Source of the DNA: Saururus chinensis
Taxonomy: Eukaryota; Streptophyta; Magnoliopsida; Piperales; Saururaceae
DNA length: 64,000 nt
Assembly: GCA_035235625.1 (NCBI GenBank)
Contig: CP141141.1
Span: 5,694,968-5,758,967 of the forward strand
Direction: 5' to 3'
This document shows positions 3,917 to 50,650 of the stretch, one piece after another; position 1 is the stretch's first letter, and every line of letters starts with the position of its first letter. The position numbers were made by a program, and so were the translations under genes. The notes beneath the pieces were generated by a model, which ran no database searches, was not told the origin of the DNA, and worked only from the letters and a program-made list of their open reading frames with translations.

Positions 3917-4790
3917 TCATGGCATCTAGGCACATAGCGTAGTATGTAAGCACATAGCATGACATAGAGGCACATAGCATAGTATATAGGTATATAGCAT
4001 GAAATATAGGTACATAGCATGACATATAGGCACATAGCATGGCATATAGGCACATAGCATGGCATATAGGTACATAGCATAGTATAGAGGCACATAGCAT
4101 GGCATATAGGCACATAGCATAGTATATAGGCACATAGCATGGCATATAGGTACATAGCATAGTATATCGGCACATAGCATGGCATATAGGCATATAGCAT
4201 AGTATATAGGCACATAGCATGGCATACAGGCACATAGTATAGTATATAGGTACATAGCATGACATATAGGTACATAGCATAGTATATGGACACATAGCAT
4301 GGCATATAGGTACATAGCATAGTATATAGGCATATAGCATGGCATATAGGCACATAACATAGTATATAGGTACATAGCATGGCATATAGGCACATAGCAT
4401 GACATATAGGCACATAGCATGACATATATGTACATAGCATAGTATATAGGCACATAGCATGGCATACAGGCACATAGCATAGTATATAGGTACATAGCAT
4501 AGTATATAGGCACATAGCATGGCATATAGGTACATAGCATGACATATAGGTACATAACATAGTATAGAGGCACATAGCATGTCATATAGGTACATAGCAT
4601 AGTATATAGGCACATAGCATGGCATATAGGCACATAGCATAGTATATAGGCACATAGCATGGCATATAGGTACATAGCATAGTATATCGGCACATAGCAT
4701 GGCATATAGGTACATAGTATATAGGCATATAGCATGGCATATAGGCACATAGCATAGTATATAGGCACATAGTATGGCATATATAAATCG
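3917..4790. repeat. 20-nt tandem array, about 43 units
   Basis: Imperfect units of 20 nt that alternate between CACATAGCATGGCATATAGG-like and TACATAGCATAGTATATAGG-like forms. All three minus-strand frames stay open through most of the array because the unit contains no stop codon in that orientation. This is a structural consequence of the repeat, not evidence for a protein. Confidence 0.9.
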
Positions 4791-41291: not shown

Positions 41292-42426
41292 TGTCACACC
41301 TTGGCACCCACCCAACCTAACCCGAACCCGGTCCAAGGGACTGTTGAAGCACACAGGGGTGACAAATTGATAAACTGCGGACCTCTAGTGGGTAAATTAC
41401 ACATACGGAGTAGCACACCTTTAAATCTTTGTGCAAGAGAAATAAGCAAAAGTGAAAAGGATACTAAATCTGAAACAATCATCAAGTCTCAACCCAAAAA
41501 CTTACAACCATTAAGCTTTTCAACATGGCTAAAGTCATAACATCTGAAAACAAGTCAGAGCCACAACGACTAGTAGTGTACGAGACAAAGTCATCTAAAC
41601 ATGAAATTCTAATAAAACAGTAAAATAATCAGGAAACATACCGAGGTCTCAAGGCATCCATTCCTACTCCAAAGCATTCGCCAACCATTCCTTATGCGGA
41701 GGATCTTGATCGAGTGCATGTTGCACCATGTAGCCCCAAAATAGAAAACACAAAAAACCGGGGTGAGTATAAACTCAATAAGGTTTTGAATGTGGAAATA
41801 ATTAATCAGAAAAACAACTATGGCAGATCAACATGGTCTATCAGATCTACAAATAATATAATATCTCATTTATGATTACTTTCCTTACCATAACCATACT
41901 TGCTCAAAAGTAATCCTGCATGTAAATATCTCAAACATAATATCCATAACATGAATTATTACATTATGACATAAACATTCATCCATGCATGAAGAGTGTC
42001 TCAGGCATATCATACATATCCATGCATACCCATTCTCCTTCATAACATTCAACCTGCATGACACGTGTCTCCAACACACAATCACATCATGCATATCCAT
42101 AACCATTAACTTGCATGAGAAGTGTCTCTAACACACAATCATATCATGCATATTCATTATACTCTCTCCGTCCTATTTAAATAGCTCCAATAGATAAAAA
42201 AACTTGTTCTATATTAATTGCTCCATTTATTTTAATTTAAACGTGGATGGGTCTTTCTTGCTTCTCATGTGGGCAAAAGAGATAAAATATAGAAAGAAAA
42301 GCACAGAAAGTCGTGGATTAACAATAAACTCCTTCGAAGATTTATGCCGCCCATATTATGCTGCCCAGAAAGTCGTGAGCTGATTGAGACCATCTTCCAG
42401 GACGTACAGTCCCATATTATGCCGCC

Positions 42427-43200
42427 CGGAATCCGCCCCCAACCACCCGGAGCCCGTCGAGATCATATTCCAAGACGTGCAGTCCCATATTATATATGCC
42501 GGGCATAACCCACTGGCAGAGCCCCAACTACGTCGCCTACTTCCTCAGCAATAACAGCATTGCCACCACCAAGCTGGAGAGCATCGTCATGGATTGGCTG
42601 GGCAAAATGCTCAAGCTCCCTAGCGCCTTCCTCTTCTCCGGTGGTGGTGGAGGTGTCCTCCAGGTAACCACCTGCAAAGGCATCTTCTGCATTCTCTCTG
42701 CCTCCCATGACTGCCTCTTGAACTGCATTGGCCGCGAGCGCATGGGGCGCCTCGTTGTCTATGGATCCGCCCAGACCCACTGTGCCTTCCAGAATGCTGC
42801 CCAGATCGCGGGCATCCACCCCGCCAACTTCCGCACCGTGAAGACCTTCAAGTCCAATAACTTTGCACTGTACCCTGATAATGTCCATGCAACCATTGAA
42901 CAAGACCTGGCAAAGGGCTTCCGTTGCATGTGGGTCAAAGACCCTAGTGCCCTGGTGCAGGCCCTCTCCACGGAGCCCCAACATCTCCGCAACAAGGACA
43001 TCGAGTCAAGGCAGGTGGTGGATTATAAAGACTGGCAACTCGTGCTGAGCAGGAGGTTCCGGGCGCTGAAGCTGTGGATGGTGCTAAGGAGCCACGAGGT
43101 GGCCAACCTGCGCAATTTCTCGAGGTCCCACATGAAGATGTCCAAGATGCCGGAGAAGCTGGTGGAGCAAGACAAGAGGTTCGAAGTGGTGGTTGGGGGT
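42427..43200 (+). pseudogene. Captured tyrosine/DOPA decarboxylase (aromatic amino acid decarboxylase) fragment
   Basis: The frame from 42496 reads MPGITHWQSPNYVAYFLSNN, then LESIVMDWLGKMLKLPSAF, FSGGGGGVLQ, VYGSAQTHCAFQNAAQIAGI, WVKDPSALVQAL, VVDYKDWQLVLSRRFRALKL and LRSHEVANLRNF, all hallmark stretches of plant PLP-dependent TyDC/AADC enzymes. Two internal deletions are plain: about 25 residues after SNNSIA, and a much larger one between EQDLAKG and WVKDPS that removes the PLP-binding lysine (NAHKW) region, so it cannot be an active decarboxylase. The upstream piece (42427-42490, PNHPEPVEIIFQDVQSHI) is out of frame by a short insertion and is partly repeated at about 42360-42430. The homology ends near 43200. 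Plant TyDC genes are usually intronless, so lack of introns does not prove a retrocopy. Capture by the mariner-type element is the simplest reading. Confidence 0.8.
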
Positions 43201-43322
43201 CTTCGCGATCTCCCCGTCTTCCGCCATGGCCACCACTCTCTTTGGAGTTGCGTGGGCTCAGCTTAAGCTCGGCAGTGTCGGCACTCCACTGGTAGGCTTC
43301 GTCGCTTAAACCCCAAGTGTCA

Positions 43323-43697
43323 CTAAGAGATGGGTCTCTTAGTGGAGGTGCAGTTCGATGACATCAGAGTGGCGGCGGACCTCTGCATCGGGGGAGGGAG
43401 GGAGATCGGCATCATCTTCTTCGCGACGAGGAGGCTTAGGAGGACGTCGGCTATGGCGGGGTCGTTGAAGCCCCGGGGGTGGAGCGGAGGCGGAGCGACT
43501 CCGCAGGCGGGGGCTGAGGAGGCGGAGAGTGAGTCAGGGAGGAAAGGTCGTTGGAGAGGGAGGTGAGGTGGGTGGGCAGAGAAGGAGGGGTTGGTGACGA
43601 TGGAGCACCAAAGCTTGCAGACAGCGTCGACATGGAGGATGGAGCATAGGGGAAGGAGTGAGAGGATGGAGTAAATGAGGCCGGTGGTGGACCGCAT
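43323..43697 (-). pseudogene. Captured F-box gene fragment
   Basis: Minus-strand frame from 43697 encodes an F-box-like core (LIYSILSLLPLCSILHVD, then AVCKLWCSIVTNPSFSAH), followed by a Pro/Ser-rich stretch and a C-terminal tail ending at 43323. F-box proteins are substrate adaptors of SCF ubiquitin ligases (family knowledge). The fragment lacks any substrate-binding repeat region and directly abuts an unrelated minus-strand coding fragment at about 43690, so it reads as a captured piece and not a gene. Confidence 0.5.
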
Positions 43698-43990
43698 GCT
43701 TGGCCCACGAGATCAAGACGCCCACGTCTTGTAGGGCCACCACCAGCGGCAGCAGCTGGCTCTTGGTGCCGTGAGCCCACGCTTGGGACTTCTGGCTGAA
43801 CATGATAAACTCGGAGCAGACCCCAGCAAAGGCCAGCGCGGCCGCGTTGTCCACCAGCAGCTGGACCACGAAGGAGATAGCCTAGGCGAGGGCATGGAGG
43901 TTGTTGGCAAACTGGCGCTTGGTGGCCCTGGAATGCCACGATATGGCCCCAGGAGTCTCCAGCCCACCGTAGTTATCAATCCCAGAGTGG
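43685..43990 (-). pseudogene. Captured fragment of an unidentified gene
   Basis: Minus strand, GC-rich: blocks DNYGGLETPGAISWHSRATK, FVVQLLVDNAAALAFAGVCS and KSQLLPLVVALQDVGVLISW lie in one frame with one in-frame stop between the first and second. The composition is that of a real protein, with a hydrophobic helix, but I do not recognise the family. It joins the F-box fragment at about 43690 in a different frame. Confidence 0.4.
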
Positions 43991-46900
43991 TAGATGCCGG
44001 TAACCAGGTTGGGAGGGAAGAGTATTCTCGGTTGGGTCTCATGGTAGGACTGGTGGGCCGAGGGTGGTAGACGAGGTGAGGCTGTGCCAGGGAGGGGACC
44101 AGCTGGTAGTGGAAGTGAGTGTGGCGGCGATGTAGGTGGTAGGGAGAGGCCGCCTCAGGGGCGCCGTTGCTGCGGCAAGACAAACATGTCACGTATGACT
44201 CAGTGGAGAGGAGAGGCTGGTTATACGAGAAATTTTTTTTTCTATTGTTAGACGCGGAAGTTGATAGACGCGGACGAGAGATATATTAATAAAAATAACA
44301 AAATTTAGAAATGGAGCTATTAATATAAGACGGAGGGAGTATTTAACTTGCATGAAAAGTGTTTCGAACACACAATCATATCATGTATATTCATCACATT
44401 TAATCTATATGAGAAGTATCTCTAACACACTATCACATCATAAATATTCATAATCAATCAACCTACATGCAAAGTGTCTCTAACACACTATCACAACCAT
44501 ACAAATCGTTGAAACAACCCTACTTAATTTCAACCTACATGCAAAGTGTCTCTAACACACTATCACAACCATACAAATCGTTGAAACAACCCTACTTAAT
44601 TTGCTAAAGCTTAAGTTGTTGAAAGTATGAAAGAATTACGCAGTTTGGGTAAATTTTCTAATGGGGAAGAATACCCCCTAGCAAGCCGATGCACATGGCT
44701 ACACTAACTTGGATTCTCAGGGTCTAAATGGTCTCAATAGTTTTGTCTCCTTATAGCATTGCTATTCTTCTCAAATCAAGGAGGAAAACTTGTCTTCAAA
44801 GGACGTAAAACTCCGTCCTTTTGGACATAAAACTCCATCTTTTCAAACGTAAAACCGAATCAATAAGCCTTCGATCGATTAACCCGGCAAGCATTATCAC
44901 ACAATTGCATCCAATCGATCAACACGACTAATCTTGATAAAATCTCATTAGTAAATCCATATCATGATGCGTGCAACATGGTACATACATGAGCAATGAT
45001 TACATGAATTCTAATTTATGAAACGTGCTTCCCATCAGCCATATATGCATCATTTCTAATCATAAGTATCAACAATTATCATAATTACCCCCATATGTAT
45101 ATATACATGGTAGAAACATTCAATTCTAAGCATATAGACATGCATTATAAACATCCCATTAACATACTACACACACTCTATTTAACATTTAGTCATGGCT
45201 CCTTACTGAAATCATGAGTGAAAACCATCAAAAAGCACAATTCAATTTAAGTGCAATCTCATGCTAGACTTAAGTAAGCATATTCATTACTACATTTGAA
45301 GCTAGACAAGGCACCATCATCCATCCATAATTTAATCATTATATATGAAGGCATATAAATCCATTCTCATACTATAACCTTGATGGAATCATACTTAAAA
45401 TATGATGAATCATTCAACATGGATTCAAGATAATAAATCATAACATGCTTAACCGAATAACATGTAATTCACTTAATACTTAAACATTCATCATAGCTTC
45501 CAACATCAAATTTAGACCCTTCCAGTAGCTCTTCCTAACATAAATTACTCATCATAAACGTAAGAAATGATACTTAAGAGTAAAAACACAAAATGAGCAA
45601 ACATAACCAAAGATGGCCAAACTGCTGTGTTGGCATTCGAATGCCCTCGAACGCCCTACAGGGGCGTTTGATTGGCCTGCATGGCCATTCAAACGCCATA
45701 ATAGAAGTTCTAGTTCGTCTTCTTCCTTTTAAATCCAAAATCGAAAATGCGCATATACATCTTAAACCTTCAAATCTTACTCCCAAACATCACCATAATG
45801 AAATCTAAGCCTAGGAAATAGTAAATCTAGACATTTATCAACAAAAGCATGAAGAAATTGTAAGAAAGATTAAGCTTTTCTTAATCCGCTATTAAAGCTC
45901 AACTCCATGCAAACCCACATAAAATTCTACCACACTTCAAATCTGAAATCACCAACCTATTTAGGACAAAATCCCTTACCTCCAGTGTGTTTCTTACCTT
46001 GAAAACGACACTCCAACTCCTTCAAAATCCTACCCACAATAAGGTTTTGTTAATACTTTCATAAATCTGCTTTAAAATGCCTAAATCACTAGAAAACTTA
46101 TAGATCTAGGCTTTATTGAGTTCAAAAATGAAATTCCTTCCATAGAGGTTTGAAATAGAGGTCAAAATCAGAAGCTTTAAGGGTAAAAATCGAGATTAAT
46201 CCTTGGAAAAAGAAGGGATTTAGAAAGTTTAGGAGAAACCCTAAGTAATTAATGGAAAATCAAGCTAATCTTTACCTTAATCACCTTTCATTCTTTGGAA
46301 ATGGGGATTAGAGACTCATAAGCTCCAGATTCCAGCCCTTCCCAAATGGAAAAGTGGTTGTGCCTTACTATTTATAGTAGGCTCTGGAGTATACCTAACA
46401 AATATGTGGGGTATAAATAGAATTTAACACTAAAAATAAAAAACTTACTTATTTTAAGCCCAAATTGATGTCTAAAATTTTTGAAACATTTAATTATTGT
46501 CATAAGATGTTTTTAGGGTTATTTAAGACCTATCATCCTAATTTCACATGTGGGGCCCACAATGGGACCCGCCGCCTAAATTTTGGAAAAATAGTCAAAA
46601 ATTCTAAAAATTCCAAAAAAATTTGTATTGACTTATATTAACATAAAAGCCATCAAAGTGAAGAAAAATTGATTAAAACCATCATTAACCACCTTAAATT
46701 CAAAAATAAGTCAAACCAACCAAATTTAACATTAAACCACACAATAATAATTAAATAAAAATAATTAAACCGGTTTAGGATTTAGGGATCTTACACTCCT
46801 TCAAACTCTTGAGGCTTTCCCTCTTCATGTTCTGTCTTCATCTTCTTCTACCTCCTCAAACAACACCATGACTGAGCATGGAGACTTAGGAAATCTCATA

Positions 46901-49309
46901 AATCGACCACTCTTATTTAGTGGTCAAAATTTCTCCTATTAAAAGAACCGGATGAGAGCCTTCATTCAAGTCTTGGTGGCAATGTTTGAAAAGCTGTGAT
47001 TAAAAGCTAAAATCCACCTATGACCAGAGATAAGGATGGTAAATGAATTCTAAAAGATGAGAGCGAATAAGATGAGAATGCGACTAAACTTGCTAACTAC
47101 AATAGTAAAGCCCTAAGTACATTGTTTAAAACCCTGAGTGCATTGTTTAATGCCATAAAAAATTTTTAGTATTGGTTAATCTCTAATTATACATCCGCTA
47201 AAGTAGCTTGGGAAAAACTTGTCAAGTAAAATAAGGGAACCGAAGCTATGAAGGTGTCTATGTTACAAATATTCATACTAGAGTGTGAAAACATCATACT
47301 GAGTGAAGAAGAAACAATTTCTAAAATTGTGCTAAAATTTGGATATCATTAGCACATGTGATTAACTAGGAGAGCCAATACTGGATTACCTTCTAGTAAA
47401 GAAGATTCTAAGGCCCTTATCCTTAAAATTTAAAATTAAGGTGACTGTAATTAATGAATCAAAGAAAATTAACACCTTAGACATCGAAGAACTGAAAGGA
47501 AACTTATGAACTTTTGAAATGCAAGAAGTCATATGAAAACAAAAAGAGTTATTTGGAAAAAAAAACAAATTGCCCTAAGAACAACTAAGAAGTTTTCCAA
47601 AAAGTCCAAAGCCCTAAATATTTTTGAAAATTTTGAAAAAGTGAGAGCGAGGATGATCAAATGGTCTTGTTGACTAAAAACTTCAAGAAATTCTTAAAAA
47701 CTCAAAACTTTAGACTTGAGAAAAATGGTCAACCTTTATGGAAAAGACAAGGAGAAAGAAGAGGAAAAATATAGCAAACAAGATAAGAAGAACCTGAAAT
47801 GATTTTAATGTGGTAAATTAGGTCACTTCGCTATTAATTATCCAAATAATGCTTTTGATAGTTTATGAGAAAAAGAGAAAGGTGAAAGTTTTTCAAGCCA
47901 CTTTTTCTGATGAGAGCTCTTCTAAAGAAGAAGTGTGTAACTATATTGTGTCTATGTAAGTGTGAAGGAAGATGGTTCAAGTAAAGAGTCTCATAAGTCT
48001 ACTTTTGTTGAAGTCAACTCAGATTTAGTGCATGACCAAGATTTCGATGAGTATAGTGTTCCTCCAACAACTTCTAGTTTTATCTAGAAAGTCAAAACAC
48101 CTTGAGAGAGAATTAAAAAAAAAGACAAGGAATTAGAATTAGCTTCTTAAGAGTCCAATAGGTCGATAGAGTTGAATAAGAACCTTGTGAGGGAGGTTAA
48201 TATCCTTAAGAATGACCTTGAACAAGAAAGAGAGAGAGAGAGAAATCTAGTGCTCTTAATAAAGAACTTATGTCATCTATAGAGAAATGACATGGGTTCA
48301 AGAGTGAGAGAAAATCTTTAAATAACTTGTTGAGCATTGGTCAAACAAATAAAATGGGTTTAGGTTTTAAAACATGTTTATCAACACCTTAAGGTAGTGC
48401 CTAACCCACCAAGGTCAAGAGGGAAGGAGTTGAAATTCAATTCTATGATTGTAGGAGTTTGTGAGTTGTGTCATAAAGATAATCACACTAGAAAGGAGTG
48501 TCCAAATAACCATCTTCACAAACTTAGCTTAAGAGAAAAGGAGAAAAAGACCCTTACACATTCAACCCCTAGGCCACCCCACCAAGTATATGAGCATAAG
48601 ATGAAGAGGGTATGGGTGAGGAAGATTCACTCTAACAAAAAGGACTATTAGCGACGCATTTATACATCACTAATAGTCCCATAAGCATCACTAATGACTA
48701 TTAGCAACGTATAATAAATGTCGCTATAAGTGTCACAAAAAGTGTCATCGCTATTACCCATTCGCGACGTATAGCAAAAAGCGTTGCTAATAGGGCCTAT
48801 TAGTGATGTATAAATATACGTCGCTATTAGTAAATATACACCGCTAATAATAAATTATTACTGACGCTTATTTTCTAGCATTGCTAATGATAAGTTATTA
48901 GCGACACTTTTCTATACGTCGCTAATAGAAAAACTATTTTTTTAAAAATAAAAAAAATATTAAGGACGTATACCTATAAGTGTCGCTAATAAGGACTTAT
49001 TAGCTATACTTGCATATACGTCACTAACAGAAAAAGTATTTTTAAAAAAATTAAAAATAACTTATTAGTGACATATAATTATAAGCATCGCTAATAAGGC
49101 TTTATTGACGACACTTTCTATACATCGTTAATATAATAAATTTTTTAAAGAAAACATCAAAGCGTCACTAATATCATAATATTAAAAAAATTTAAATTAA
49201 ATAGCGATGCTTTTCAAGCGTCACTCATACATTTTAAAATAATAAAAAAATAATTTAGCGACGCTTTTTATGCGTTGCTAAAGATGATTTTTTTATTAAA
49301 AAAATCCCT

Positions 49310-49665
49310 GGTGGACCATTGGGCCCACCGGGGAAGGGAGAAGGGGTCAGAGGACGGCAGGGCACCAGAATCCGGACCCCCCGCCCCGCCGAACAGGAGG
49401 AAAAAGGGGGGGGGGTGCAGGGGGAGAGGAGGTCCAGAAAAGAGGGGGGAGCGAGAGGATGGCAACGGCGGTGGATGGGGGGCCAGAGAACAGTGAGGTG
49501 TGGGTAGGGGGTGGCGGTGGCGGTGGCAGGGGGCGGTGCCGCCCAACCGACTTCAAGTCCCCATGGATGAGGTGCGGAGCAGAGGGGAGAAAGGGGACCA
49601 GGAGGGAGGAGGGGCATCAGAGGTGGTGCGGGGCCCGGCGGGGGAACGATTGAATAAACTGGACG
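49310..49665. other. GC-rich cargo block inside the CACTA element
   Basis: Abrupt change from AT-rich to very GC-rich, Pro/Gly/Arg-coding sequence on both strands. It may be a captured gene fragment, but no family is recognisable and open frames exist on both strands simply because of composition. Confidence 0.4.
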
Positions 49666-49763
49666 ATGGGCCCTTTATAAGTAGCGGGCAAAGCAATGTA
49701 TAATAATATACGTCGCTAATATGTATACTAGTAGCGACATATATCACTATACGTTGCTATTAT

Positions 49764-50020
49764 CTCCCTCTCCTCTCTCTCTCTCTCCTCTCCCTCTCTC
49801 CTCTCCTCTCTCTCTCCTCACACTCTCTCTCCTCCCTCTCCTCTCTTTCTCTCTCCTCTCTCTCCCTCTCTTTCTCCCTCTCCTCTCTCTCCCACTCCTC
49901 TCTCTCCTCTATCTCTCTCTCCCACTCCTCTCTCTCGTCTCTCTCTCCCTCTCCTCTCTCTCCCTCCCTCTCTCCTCTCTCTCCCTCTCCTCTCTCTTCT
50001 CTCTCTACACACTATCTCTC
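49764..50020. repeat. CT-rich (pyrimidine) tract
   Basis: About 255 bp of almost pure C and T on the plus strand (CTCTCTCC-type). The Leu/Ser frame over it is an artefact. Confidence 0.85.
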
Positions 50021-50650
50021 TTCTAATTTCAATTTTTTATTTTTTATTTTTAAAAATAAATTTTAAAAATAAATAAATAAAATAAAATATACCTTTTAGC
50101 GATGTATAGAAATATATGTTGCTAATAAGGTAAGTATTAGCGACGTATATATGTCGCCAATACCTATATTATTAGCGACGTATATATTTACACGTCGCTA
50201 ATAGTATTTTTTTATTTTTAATTAATAACTATTAGTGACGCTTATTTTTAAGCGTCGCTAATAACAGGGCTATTAGCGACGCTTTTTCTAAGCGTCACTA
50301 ATAATGATATTTTTTTTTCTTTTTGCATTTAAAATATATATCTTTTAGCGACATTTATATAAAGCATTGCAAATAGGTTAACTATTAGTGATGCTCATAA
50401 TAAAGCGTCGCTACTATTTGACTATTAGCAACGTATATATTTATGCATCGCTAATAGTTGATTTTATTGCGACGCTTCTATATGCATCGCAAATAGTCAT
50501 TTTTAGCGACACTTAGTTTTGCGTCGCTAATAAATGTGTGGCTAATACTACATTTTATTGTAGTGATTGATCTTTAAGTCATGAAGGATTAATTAGATAA
50601 GATGAGCAAGTCCACCTTAGATTATCATAGAATTAGTTGGCTAGGCAAGG

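Follow-up and report, generated by a model that had tools for sequence, protein, structure and literature searches.

Gene fragments held between the ends of Tc1/mariner-type transposons are already known from rice and maize as Pack-Mariners, multi-locus elements included, and 19% of the rice Pack-Mariners draw on several donor loci, according to the portions of that study available (Gisby and Catoni 2022, PMC8903248). In animals, multi-copy Pack-TIRs spread by transposition, with gap-filling and FoSTeST models given for them in the available text (Tan et al. 2021, PMC8277862); the main text of that paper never uses the word 'mariner'. Within the sections available, a grapevine study reports no Tc1-Mariner element there (PMC2528002), and a maize study counts MLE/Stowaway elements and says nothing of their capturing genes (PMC2773423). 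One study in the literature searched, on rice and maize, deals with the capture of genes by mariner-type ends. The description of gene capture by Stowaway ends as little described, made in a first-pass annotation of this DNA, is accordingly fair, while 'undescribed' would be wrong (PMC8903248), and the novelty of a further case is modest.

The element considered here lies at 42162-44339 of the window, i.e. the whole 64-kb stretch of DNA analysed, to which all coordinates without a contig prefix refer. It is read, with a probability of roughly 0.93, as a non-autonomous Tc1/mariner-type (Stowaway-ended) transposon carrying fragments of at least five host loci, that is, a Pack-Mariner, on the basis of its matching ends, TA sites, in-register empty site, second insertion, donor relatives and the presence of like-ended elements with other cargo.

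Ends, target site and transposition as a unit

The 2,178-bp element is bounded by Stowaway-type inverted ends, with TA to its left and right (Table 1). The inverted arms (42159-42189 and 44312-44342, 31 nt each) are 87% complementary, the left end (42162-42173) reading CTCTCTCCGTCC and the right end (44328-44339, minus strand) reading CTCCCTCCGTCT, and the terminal inverted repeats start with CTCCCTCCGTC, as is characteristic of the Tc1/mariner (Stowaway) superfamily. The left ~110 bp are common to elements differing in cargo. Array copies at 42047-42160 and 44341-44454 are spaced 2,294 bp apart, which corresponds to the element (2,178), one duplicated TA (2) and two 57-bp periods (114), and when the element is removed and the flanks are joined through a single TA, an in-register 57-bp unit is regained. 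The GC content of the interior is 0.57, with 60.5% at 43001-44000 against 24-49% in the remaining 63 1-kb stretches of the window. The related inverted ends with TA on either side, the insertion into a tandem array and the GC-rich interior reported in the first-pass annotation are therefore all borne out, and the coordinates given there are exact.

Table 1. Features of the element and its flanks, as positions within the window.
Feature	Position	Strand	Identity
57-bp tandem array, left flank	42041..42157		
Target-site TA, left	42160..42161		
Left terminal inverted repeat and subterminal end	42162..42270	+	
Two direct copies of part of the decarboxylase 5' piece	42377..42420 and 42450-42493	+	82% to each other
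Tyrosine decarboxylase fragment, three blocks (42422-42544, 42562-42922, 42925-43193)	42422..43193	+	79-81% to C9 gene
Open frame, 256 aa, spanning decarboxylase fragment and start of next piece	42496..43266	+	
124-bp piece	43198..43321	+ (strand of match)	93.5% to C1:6443990-6444113
Piece of C7:18108735 locus	43341..43575	-	91%
F-box piece from F-box/kelch gene C5:10146214	43574..43683	-	88%
Lipid-desaturase (FAD4-like, PF10520) fragment, two blocks	43677..44230	-	81% and 76% to C5:1823679-1824466
Right terminal inverted repeat and right end common to related elements	44286..44339	-	
Target-site TA, right	44340..44341		
57-bp tandem array, right flank	44351..44495		

A second copy is present on contig C10, a different chromosome, and further elements with like ends carry other cargo; a search for such copies had been proposed. 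The C10 copy (2,122 bp including its TAs) is 95.6% identical to the window copy over 2,070 aligned bases (1,978 matches and 92 mismatches, 16 gaps aside), and a TA target-site duplication is found at both. As the C10 copy has TA at both sides and flanks unrelated to those of the window copy, the element moves as a unit, and the cargo-bearing unit has itself transposed, as expected of a Pack-TYPE element. Similarly, among 22 flanking stretches of 50-300 bases, taken from 11 complete elements, none resembled a flank of another element at E 1e-3. No empty-site copy of the C10 insertion was found in the genome, the search giving only its own two flanks. The 34-base end pattern had 613 matches genome-wide at up to 3 mismatches and 0 for the reversed control; taken with the second copy on C10, this places the element beyond chance.

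The scenario named beforehand as fatal to the existence of a unit, two independent Stowaway MITEs around ordinary ancestral host sequence, draws on the great abundance of such ends in the genome (the 613 matches) and on the presence of short MITEs of ~200 bp (L038 2994-3196; L048 566-768 and 6042-6246). However, the entire block including both ends recurs on C10, TA-flanked and with other flanks, the array joins in register once the block is removed, and the interior combines pieces of five loci that are unlinked, leaving this scenario a negligible probability; the C10 copy excludes it as a description of the locus.

Cargo and donor loci

The interior of the Pack-Mariner derives from host loci present elsewhere in the genome, namely at least five: a tyrosine decarboxylase, the source of a 124-bp piece, a C7 gene, an F-box/kelch gene and a lipid desaturase (FAD4-like). 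Three donors had been proposed; two pieces beyond those noted were found. Relatives with long open frames occur elsewhere in the genome for 4 of the 5 sources; finding intact donor genes had been put forward as a check. The 124-bp piece is traced to a genomic position on C1 rather than to an identified gene. The decarboxylase lies on the plus strand (Pyridoxal_deC, E 3.2e-38; donor relative with a 521-aa open frame) and the F-box piece on the other, as first described (F-box-like, E 6.4e-5, 23.1 bits, slightly below the curated cut-off of 24.3; donor relative with a 372-aa stop-to-stop frame). A further minus-strand fragment, correctly noticed but labelled unknown, is now identified as a Lipid_desat (PF10520) piece (E 1.7e-11), with a donor relative of 315 aa in open frame and ~170 donor coding bases absent between its two blocks. 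The C7:18108735 locus has a 488-aa stop-to-stop frame for which a Pfam search with E up to 0.01 gave no family; a BTB/POZ identity was considered and rejected, Pfam giving just two unrelated matches (E 0.11 and 0.29). No transposase family was present in the six translations of the element submitted to Pfam, in keeping with a non-autonomous element, and with a length of 2,178 bp and five donor pieces it falls outside Stowaway MITEs in the narrow sense (under ~0.6 kb, no gene-derived interior).

The decarboxylase fragment has two internal deletions, the second of which takes out the part with the NAHKW motif, which carries the PLP lysine. The chimeric frame spanning this fragment in the window has a 344-aa stop-to-stop counterpart in the C10 copy, and both decarboxylase deletions preserve frame, features that would be expected of a new functional gene maintained by selection. 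This is nonetheless very improbable, as the enzyme's lysine region is deleted and pN is 0.029 against a pS of 0.026, from just 22 changes across 255 codons. With the lysine region missing and no sign of selection, this frame is most probably inert.

Related elements and the order of captures

The complete elements with like ends that were examined (n=11) measure 842-2,182 bp with both TAs counted, and their interior GC is 0.46-0.59. Those whose cargo was examined hold gene-derived pieces, and at least four other cargos are recognisable among them (phenylalanine ammonia-lyase, DUF4535, beta-amylase (GH14) and lactate dehydrogenase). Loci F, G, H, I, J and K, at which one or both ends were missing at up to 8 of 29 mismatches, were left out of this count, and L007/L046 and L060 had a left end only, with no partner within the DNA examined. 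TA formed part of the pattern by which ends were found in relatives; two weaker relatives deviate from it, with TG (L052) and TT (L058). In a small sample not picked by cargo, a partner end was present at 8 of 10 end-bearing loci and host gene pieces in 8 of 8, so annotations that take such ends for short MITEs could miss gene-carrying elements. The Pack-type mariner reading that had been proposed is thus upheld by the unit transposed to C10, the donor relatives and the like ends with other cargo.

By eye in the alignment, a decarboxylase 5' breakpoint is common to seven loci (B, C, D, G, H, K and N), indicating one first capture followed by different later ones; the breakpoint stretch is lost from the window copy, and locus J and the C9 gene continue past the breakpoint. 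The phenylalanine ammonia-lyase cargo occurs in a second branch (Lyase_aromatic, E 2.9e-38), with a donor relative at C1:5665222 whose 775-aa open frame rests on a single separate result, no closed frame of at least 400 aa being found in L057. A leucine-rich-repeat reading of one sister-branch piece was made by eye, with nothing found there by Pfam.

Capture mechanism and transposase

The favoured account of these observations is that cargo entered as genomic DNA while breaks inside the element were repaired, with copying that switched at short matches to templates not linked to it. The tyrosine decarboxylase piece would have been taken up first, by an early element, after which one branch (window and C10 copies) would have gained the C1, C7, F-box and desaturase pieces, and the other the leucine-rich-repeat-like and phenylalanine ammonia-lyase pieces. 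Because identity between the cargo blocks in the window and the donors read is only 76-94%, the joints and any short matches at them are hard to place exactly. Four joints in the window element link pieces of different loci: at two of them the pieces overlap, by 2 or 7 bases, and at the other two 4 or 19 unmatched bases intervene in place of a short match, which counts against the proposed switching.

The two published routes, neighbour fusion and template-switching repair, can be compared here through the joints. Under fusion, a pair of elements next to a gene moves as a single unit and their internal ends are lost by deletion or mutation, a model published as fitting a rice Pack-Mariner cluster in the text available (PMC8903248). 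Clustered insertions do happen in this genome, as four consecutive left-end matches at C6:25308366-25309102 indicate, and the model permits loss of internal ends. However, no end remnant was found inside the window element (best 30-mer distance 13, against a shuffle mean of 13.5 and minimum of 10, n=200), pieces from different loci adjoin directly with the short overlaps or few unmatched bases given above, and, at one interval per event, five short unlinked pieces need several rounds. Fusion is therefore unlikely, and the joints without internal end remnants lead us to infer that template-switching repair is favoured.

Gaps in the lactate dehydrogenase and desaturase cargo at first resembled missing introns, as would follow if cargo came from spliced transcripts through RNA-mediated capture. 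This is highly improbable, since the absent desaturase and decarboxylase stretches are coding (the 315-aa and 521-aa frames cross them). For lactate dehydrogenase it is refuted: the cargo lacks ~94 coding bases yet retains sequence past the apparent exon end, which points to capture at the DNA level.

Movement would depend on a mariner transposase supplied from elsewhere in the genome, which would bind the ends, excise the element and paste it at TA. A DUF7769-type transposase is present as relics and one full-length open frame of 476 aa on C11; its profile matched 8 places in the genome, and the protein search gave 50 matches, the sole full-length stop-free one being the query's own locus. 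A DDE_3 profile search found no match in the genome (the profile was positive in 3 of 14 control genomes). No matching ends were observed at up to 7 of 29 mismatches at transposase loci L053 and L054, or at up to 8 of 29 at L055 and L059, and there was no autonomous partner among the three DUF7769 loci examined (L053, L054/L055 and L059).

Comparison with known systems

With at least 11 complete members, the family brings in a further plant genome, and the common first-capture breakpoint makes the order of capture readable. It is a tentative suggestion, with the odds slightly against it, that one Stowaway end-pair family constitutes a general gene-shuffling system, drawing on at least 10 host loci by repeated template switching, with donors stacked stepwise, cargo halves swapped and a datable series of chimeras.

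As in plant Stowaway MITEs, the elements have the end sequence CTCCCTCCGTCC and TA targets, with 200-bp like-ended relatives in the same genome; unlike them, the 11 complete elements span 842-2,182 bp at GC 0.46-0.59, with gene pieces in those whose cargo was examined. Pack-MULEs have long ends and 9-bp target duplications, and differ from the present elements, of another superfamily, with their 30-bp ends and TA. The gene-fragment patchwork between inverted ends is shared with Pack-MULEs (as cited in the available text of PMC8903248 and PMC2528002). Chimeric TIR elements and short matches at joints are shared with the animal Pack-TIRs, as far as the available text describes them (Tan et al. 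2021, PMC8277862), whereas the present case is from a plant and stacks several donors. The closest likeness is to the rice and maize Pack-Mariners, which have Stowaway/mariner ends, TA targets, host coding pieces, mostly low copy number and sometimes several donors; in contrast to those described in the available text (PMC8903248), the window element has no internal end remnant, at least five donors are joined in this one element, and a sister series is traceable from one first capture.

Structure and mobility of the window element

The element at 42162-44339 of the window (A) has related inverted ends of 31 nt with 87% complementarity and a TA directly outside both, and is inserted within a 57-bp tandem array, whose copies to its left and right have a spacing of 2,294 bp, equal to the element (2,178) plus one extra TA and two periods; joining its flanks with one TA gives a normal array unit. 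GC content of the interior is 57%, and across 1-kb stretches of the window 43001-44000 has 60.5% GC and all others 24-49%. Other repeats in the window comprise a perfect 72-bp tandem duplication (44458-44602) adjoining the 57-bp array and containing part of one array unit, a satellite-like array of a 40-bp unit in about 21 copies (3927-4783), and repeated units of 20, 37 and 102 bp containing CGCTAATA, with a long TC-rich array between (48810-50532).

A genome search recovered a second copy, B, on contig C10 (2,122 bp including its TAs), with a TA at both sides and aligning to A with 1,978 matches, 92 mismatches (95.6%) and 16 gaps. When the flanks of all 11 complete elements were compared as 22 stretches of 50-300 bases at E 1e-3, no similarity between different elements emerged; the sole hits were internal to one element, those in A coming from its array and a single 33-base hit lying in S. 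When an empty copy was sought for the C10 site, just B's own two flanks came back. A moves as a unit, as the first-pass annotation had proposed, and this is borne out by the TA-flanked copy B, with flanks unlike those of A.

Cargo of the window element

Three host-gene sources had been proposed; several unrelated sources are indeed present in one element, but at least five were found by matching pieces to genome loci. Donor relatives with open frames lie elsewhere in the genome for four of the five, the decarboxylase, the desaturase, the C7-like piece and the F-box piece (an F-box/kelch gene); the C7 frame has no Pfam family. Gaps in the decarboxylase and desaturase fragments represent lost coding sequence, as the open frames of the donors run on through these stretches, and the second decarboxylase deletion takes out residues including the NAHKW motif, the lysine of which binds the cofactor in this family. 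The 256-aa frame differs between A and B by 17.5 non-synonymous and 4.5 synonymous changes in 255 codons (pN 0.029, pS 0.026); these changes, although few, give no sign of constraint.

Cargo pieces, complete elements and related loci
Feature	Location	Details
Tyrosine decarboxylase fragment	A, first along + strand	three blocks; 79-81% to 521-aa open frame on C9
124-bp piece	A, second	93.5% to C1:6443990
C7-like piece	A, third, minus orientation	91% to 488-aa stop-to-stop frame on C7
F-box piece	A, fourth, minus orientation	88% to F-box/kelch gene on C5
Desaturase (PF10520) fragment	A, last, minus orientation	two blocks; 81% and 76% to 315-aa open frame on C5
Element A	window	
Element B	C10	
Element C	L034	decarboxylase + PAL
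Element D	L048	
Element E	L051	
Element N	L056	
Element P	L003	PAL
Element Q1	L005	89% identical to Q2
Element Q2	L006	DUF4535 (E 1.6e-16)
Element R	L008	beta-amylase GH14 (E 2.1e-8 and 2.3e-6)
Element S	L061	lactate dehydrogenase (E 3.7e-16)
Long copies of L008 294-1609	C7:37051196, C3:37309659, C4:32112621, C9:38359340, C4:25572994, C6:44531501, C4:7949233, C5:10688770, C10:10921867	
DUF7769 transposase frame	L055 1698-3125 (C11:21957197-21958624)	476 aa, without stops

A family of like-ended elements

The proposed search for other copies found like-ended elements with different host-derived cargo. The left 201 bases of A, with a ranking that favours ends resembling its own, gave at least 43 matches (40 of 726 candidates scored), and a 34-base end pattern gave 613 at no more than 3 mismatches (reversed control, 0). 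Both ends were read in 11 complete elements (842-2,182 bp including TAs), a non-random sample because D, E and N were reached via cargo matches. A cargo-blind sample of 10 loci, the window's own included, was drawn from the left-end search (8) and exact end matches (2 of 53); a partner end was present in eight (A, B, C, P, Q1, Q2, R and S), all with host-derived cargo, and was not found within the sequence read around L007/L046 and L060. Elements P, Q1, Q2 and R, with three cargo kinds, have in common a left end of about 110 bp and a right end of 54-83 bp.

The beta-amylase-bearing interior of R has nine further long copies (79-88% identity), which outnumber the window's branch; among the end matches listed, element ends lie close to three of them. 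At C6:25308366-25309102, four successive left-end matches, all minus-strand, lie within 0.75 kb, as clustered or tandem Stowaway ends.

Acquisition of the cargo

The switch from element end to decarboxylase lies at the identical place in seven aligned loci (B, C, D, G, H, K and N), and the C9 gene and an interrupted decarboxylase locus, J, run past that breakpoint, most likely reflecting a single early capture of the decarboxylase; A has lost this stretch. Beyond the decarboxylase, A and B carry pieces of the remaining four donors; in C, D, K and N it is followed by a leucine-rich-repeat-like piece (recognised by eye) and/or PAL, and later sections of this second branch, lacking the shared start, occur in E, F and I. 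In P the PAL match adjoins the left end, and no decarboxylase was found at its place among the matches listed. A relative of the PAL donor (C1:5665222; 775-aa open frame) matches C at 88% in protein comparison. A tyrosine decarboxylase locus at and around C1:50808971-50810578 is interrupted twice, each time by about 1.05 kb; at 85-88% it is closer to the element cargo than the C9 gene, and may represent the true donor's lineage.

The lactate dehydrogenase cargo of S retains sequence beyond an apparent exon end, which we presume from the course of this family, and lacks about 94 coding bases as well as 25 bases up to that end, pointing to capture from genomic DNA.

Pieces from different loci meet at four joints in A, two with BLAST overlaps (2 and 7 bases) and two with unmatched bases (4 and 19). 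The joint within the desaturase fragment has a 3-base overlap, and unmatched bases number 17 and 2 at the two joints within the decarboxylase fragment. Fusion of neighbouring insertions, the model of PMC8903248, captures one interval per round and would be expected to leave end remnants, at least initially, whereas none was found inside A (best distance 13/30; 200 shuffles, mean 13.5, smallest 10). Template switching during break repair, argued for animal Pack-TIRs in PMC8277862, probably fits A better (probability about 0.6); because the donors have diverged, we infer this step.

Transposase and comparison with known elements

The ends and TA sites suggest that a transposase supplied from elsewhere in the genome would move the elements. 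Mariner-type frames (DUF7769) occur at 8 places, and a protein search with the 476-aa C11 frame gave 50 matches, only the query itself being full length without stops; about twenty other loci are fragmentary or contain stops. No Stowaway ends matching the elements were found around three DUF7769 loci read, including the C11 frame, which could be a solitary or domesticated copy.

Since Pack-Mariners have been described in rice and maize (PMC8903248), A belongs to an already known kind; within the literature searched, the term is confined to that paper. It reports several loci in 19% of rice Pack-Mariners; A draws on at least five, and behind it stands an unusually readable family of related elements.
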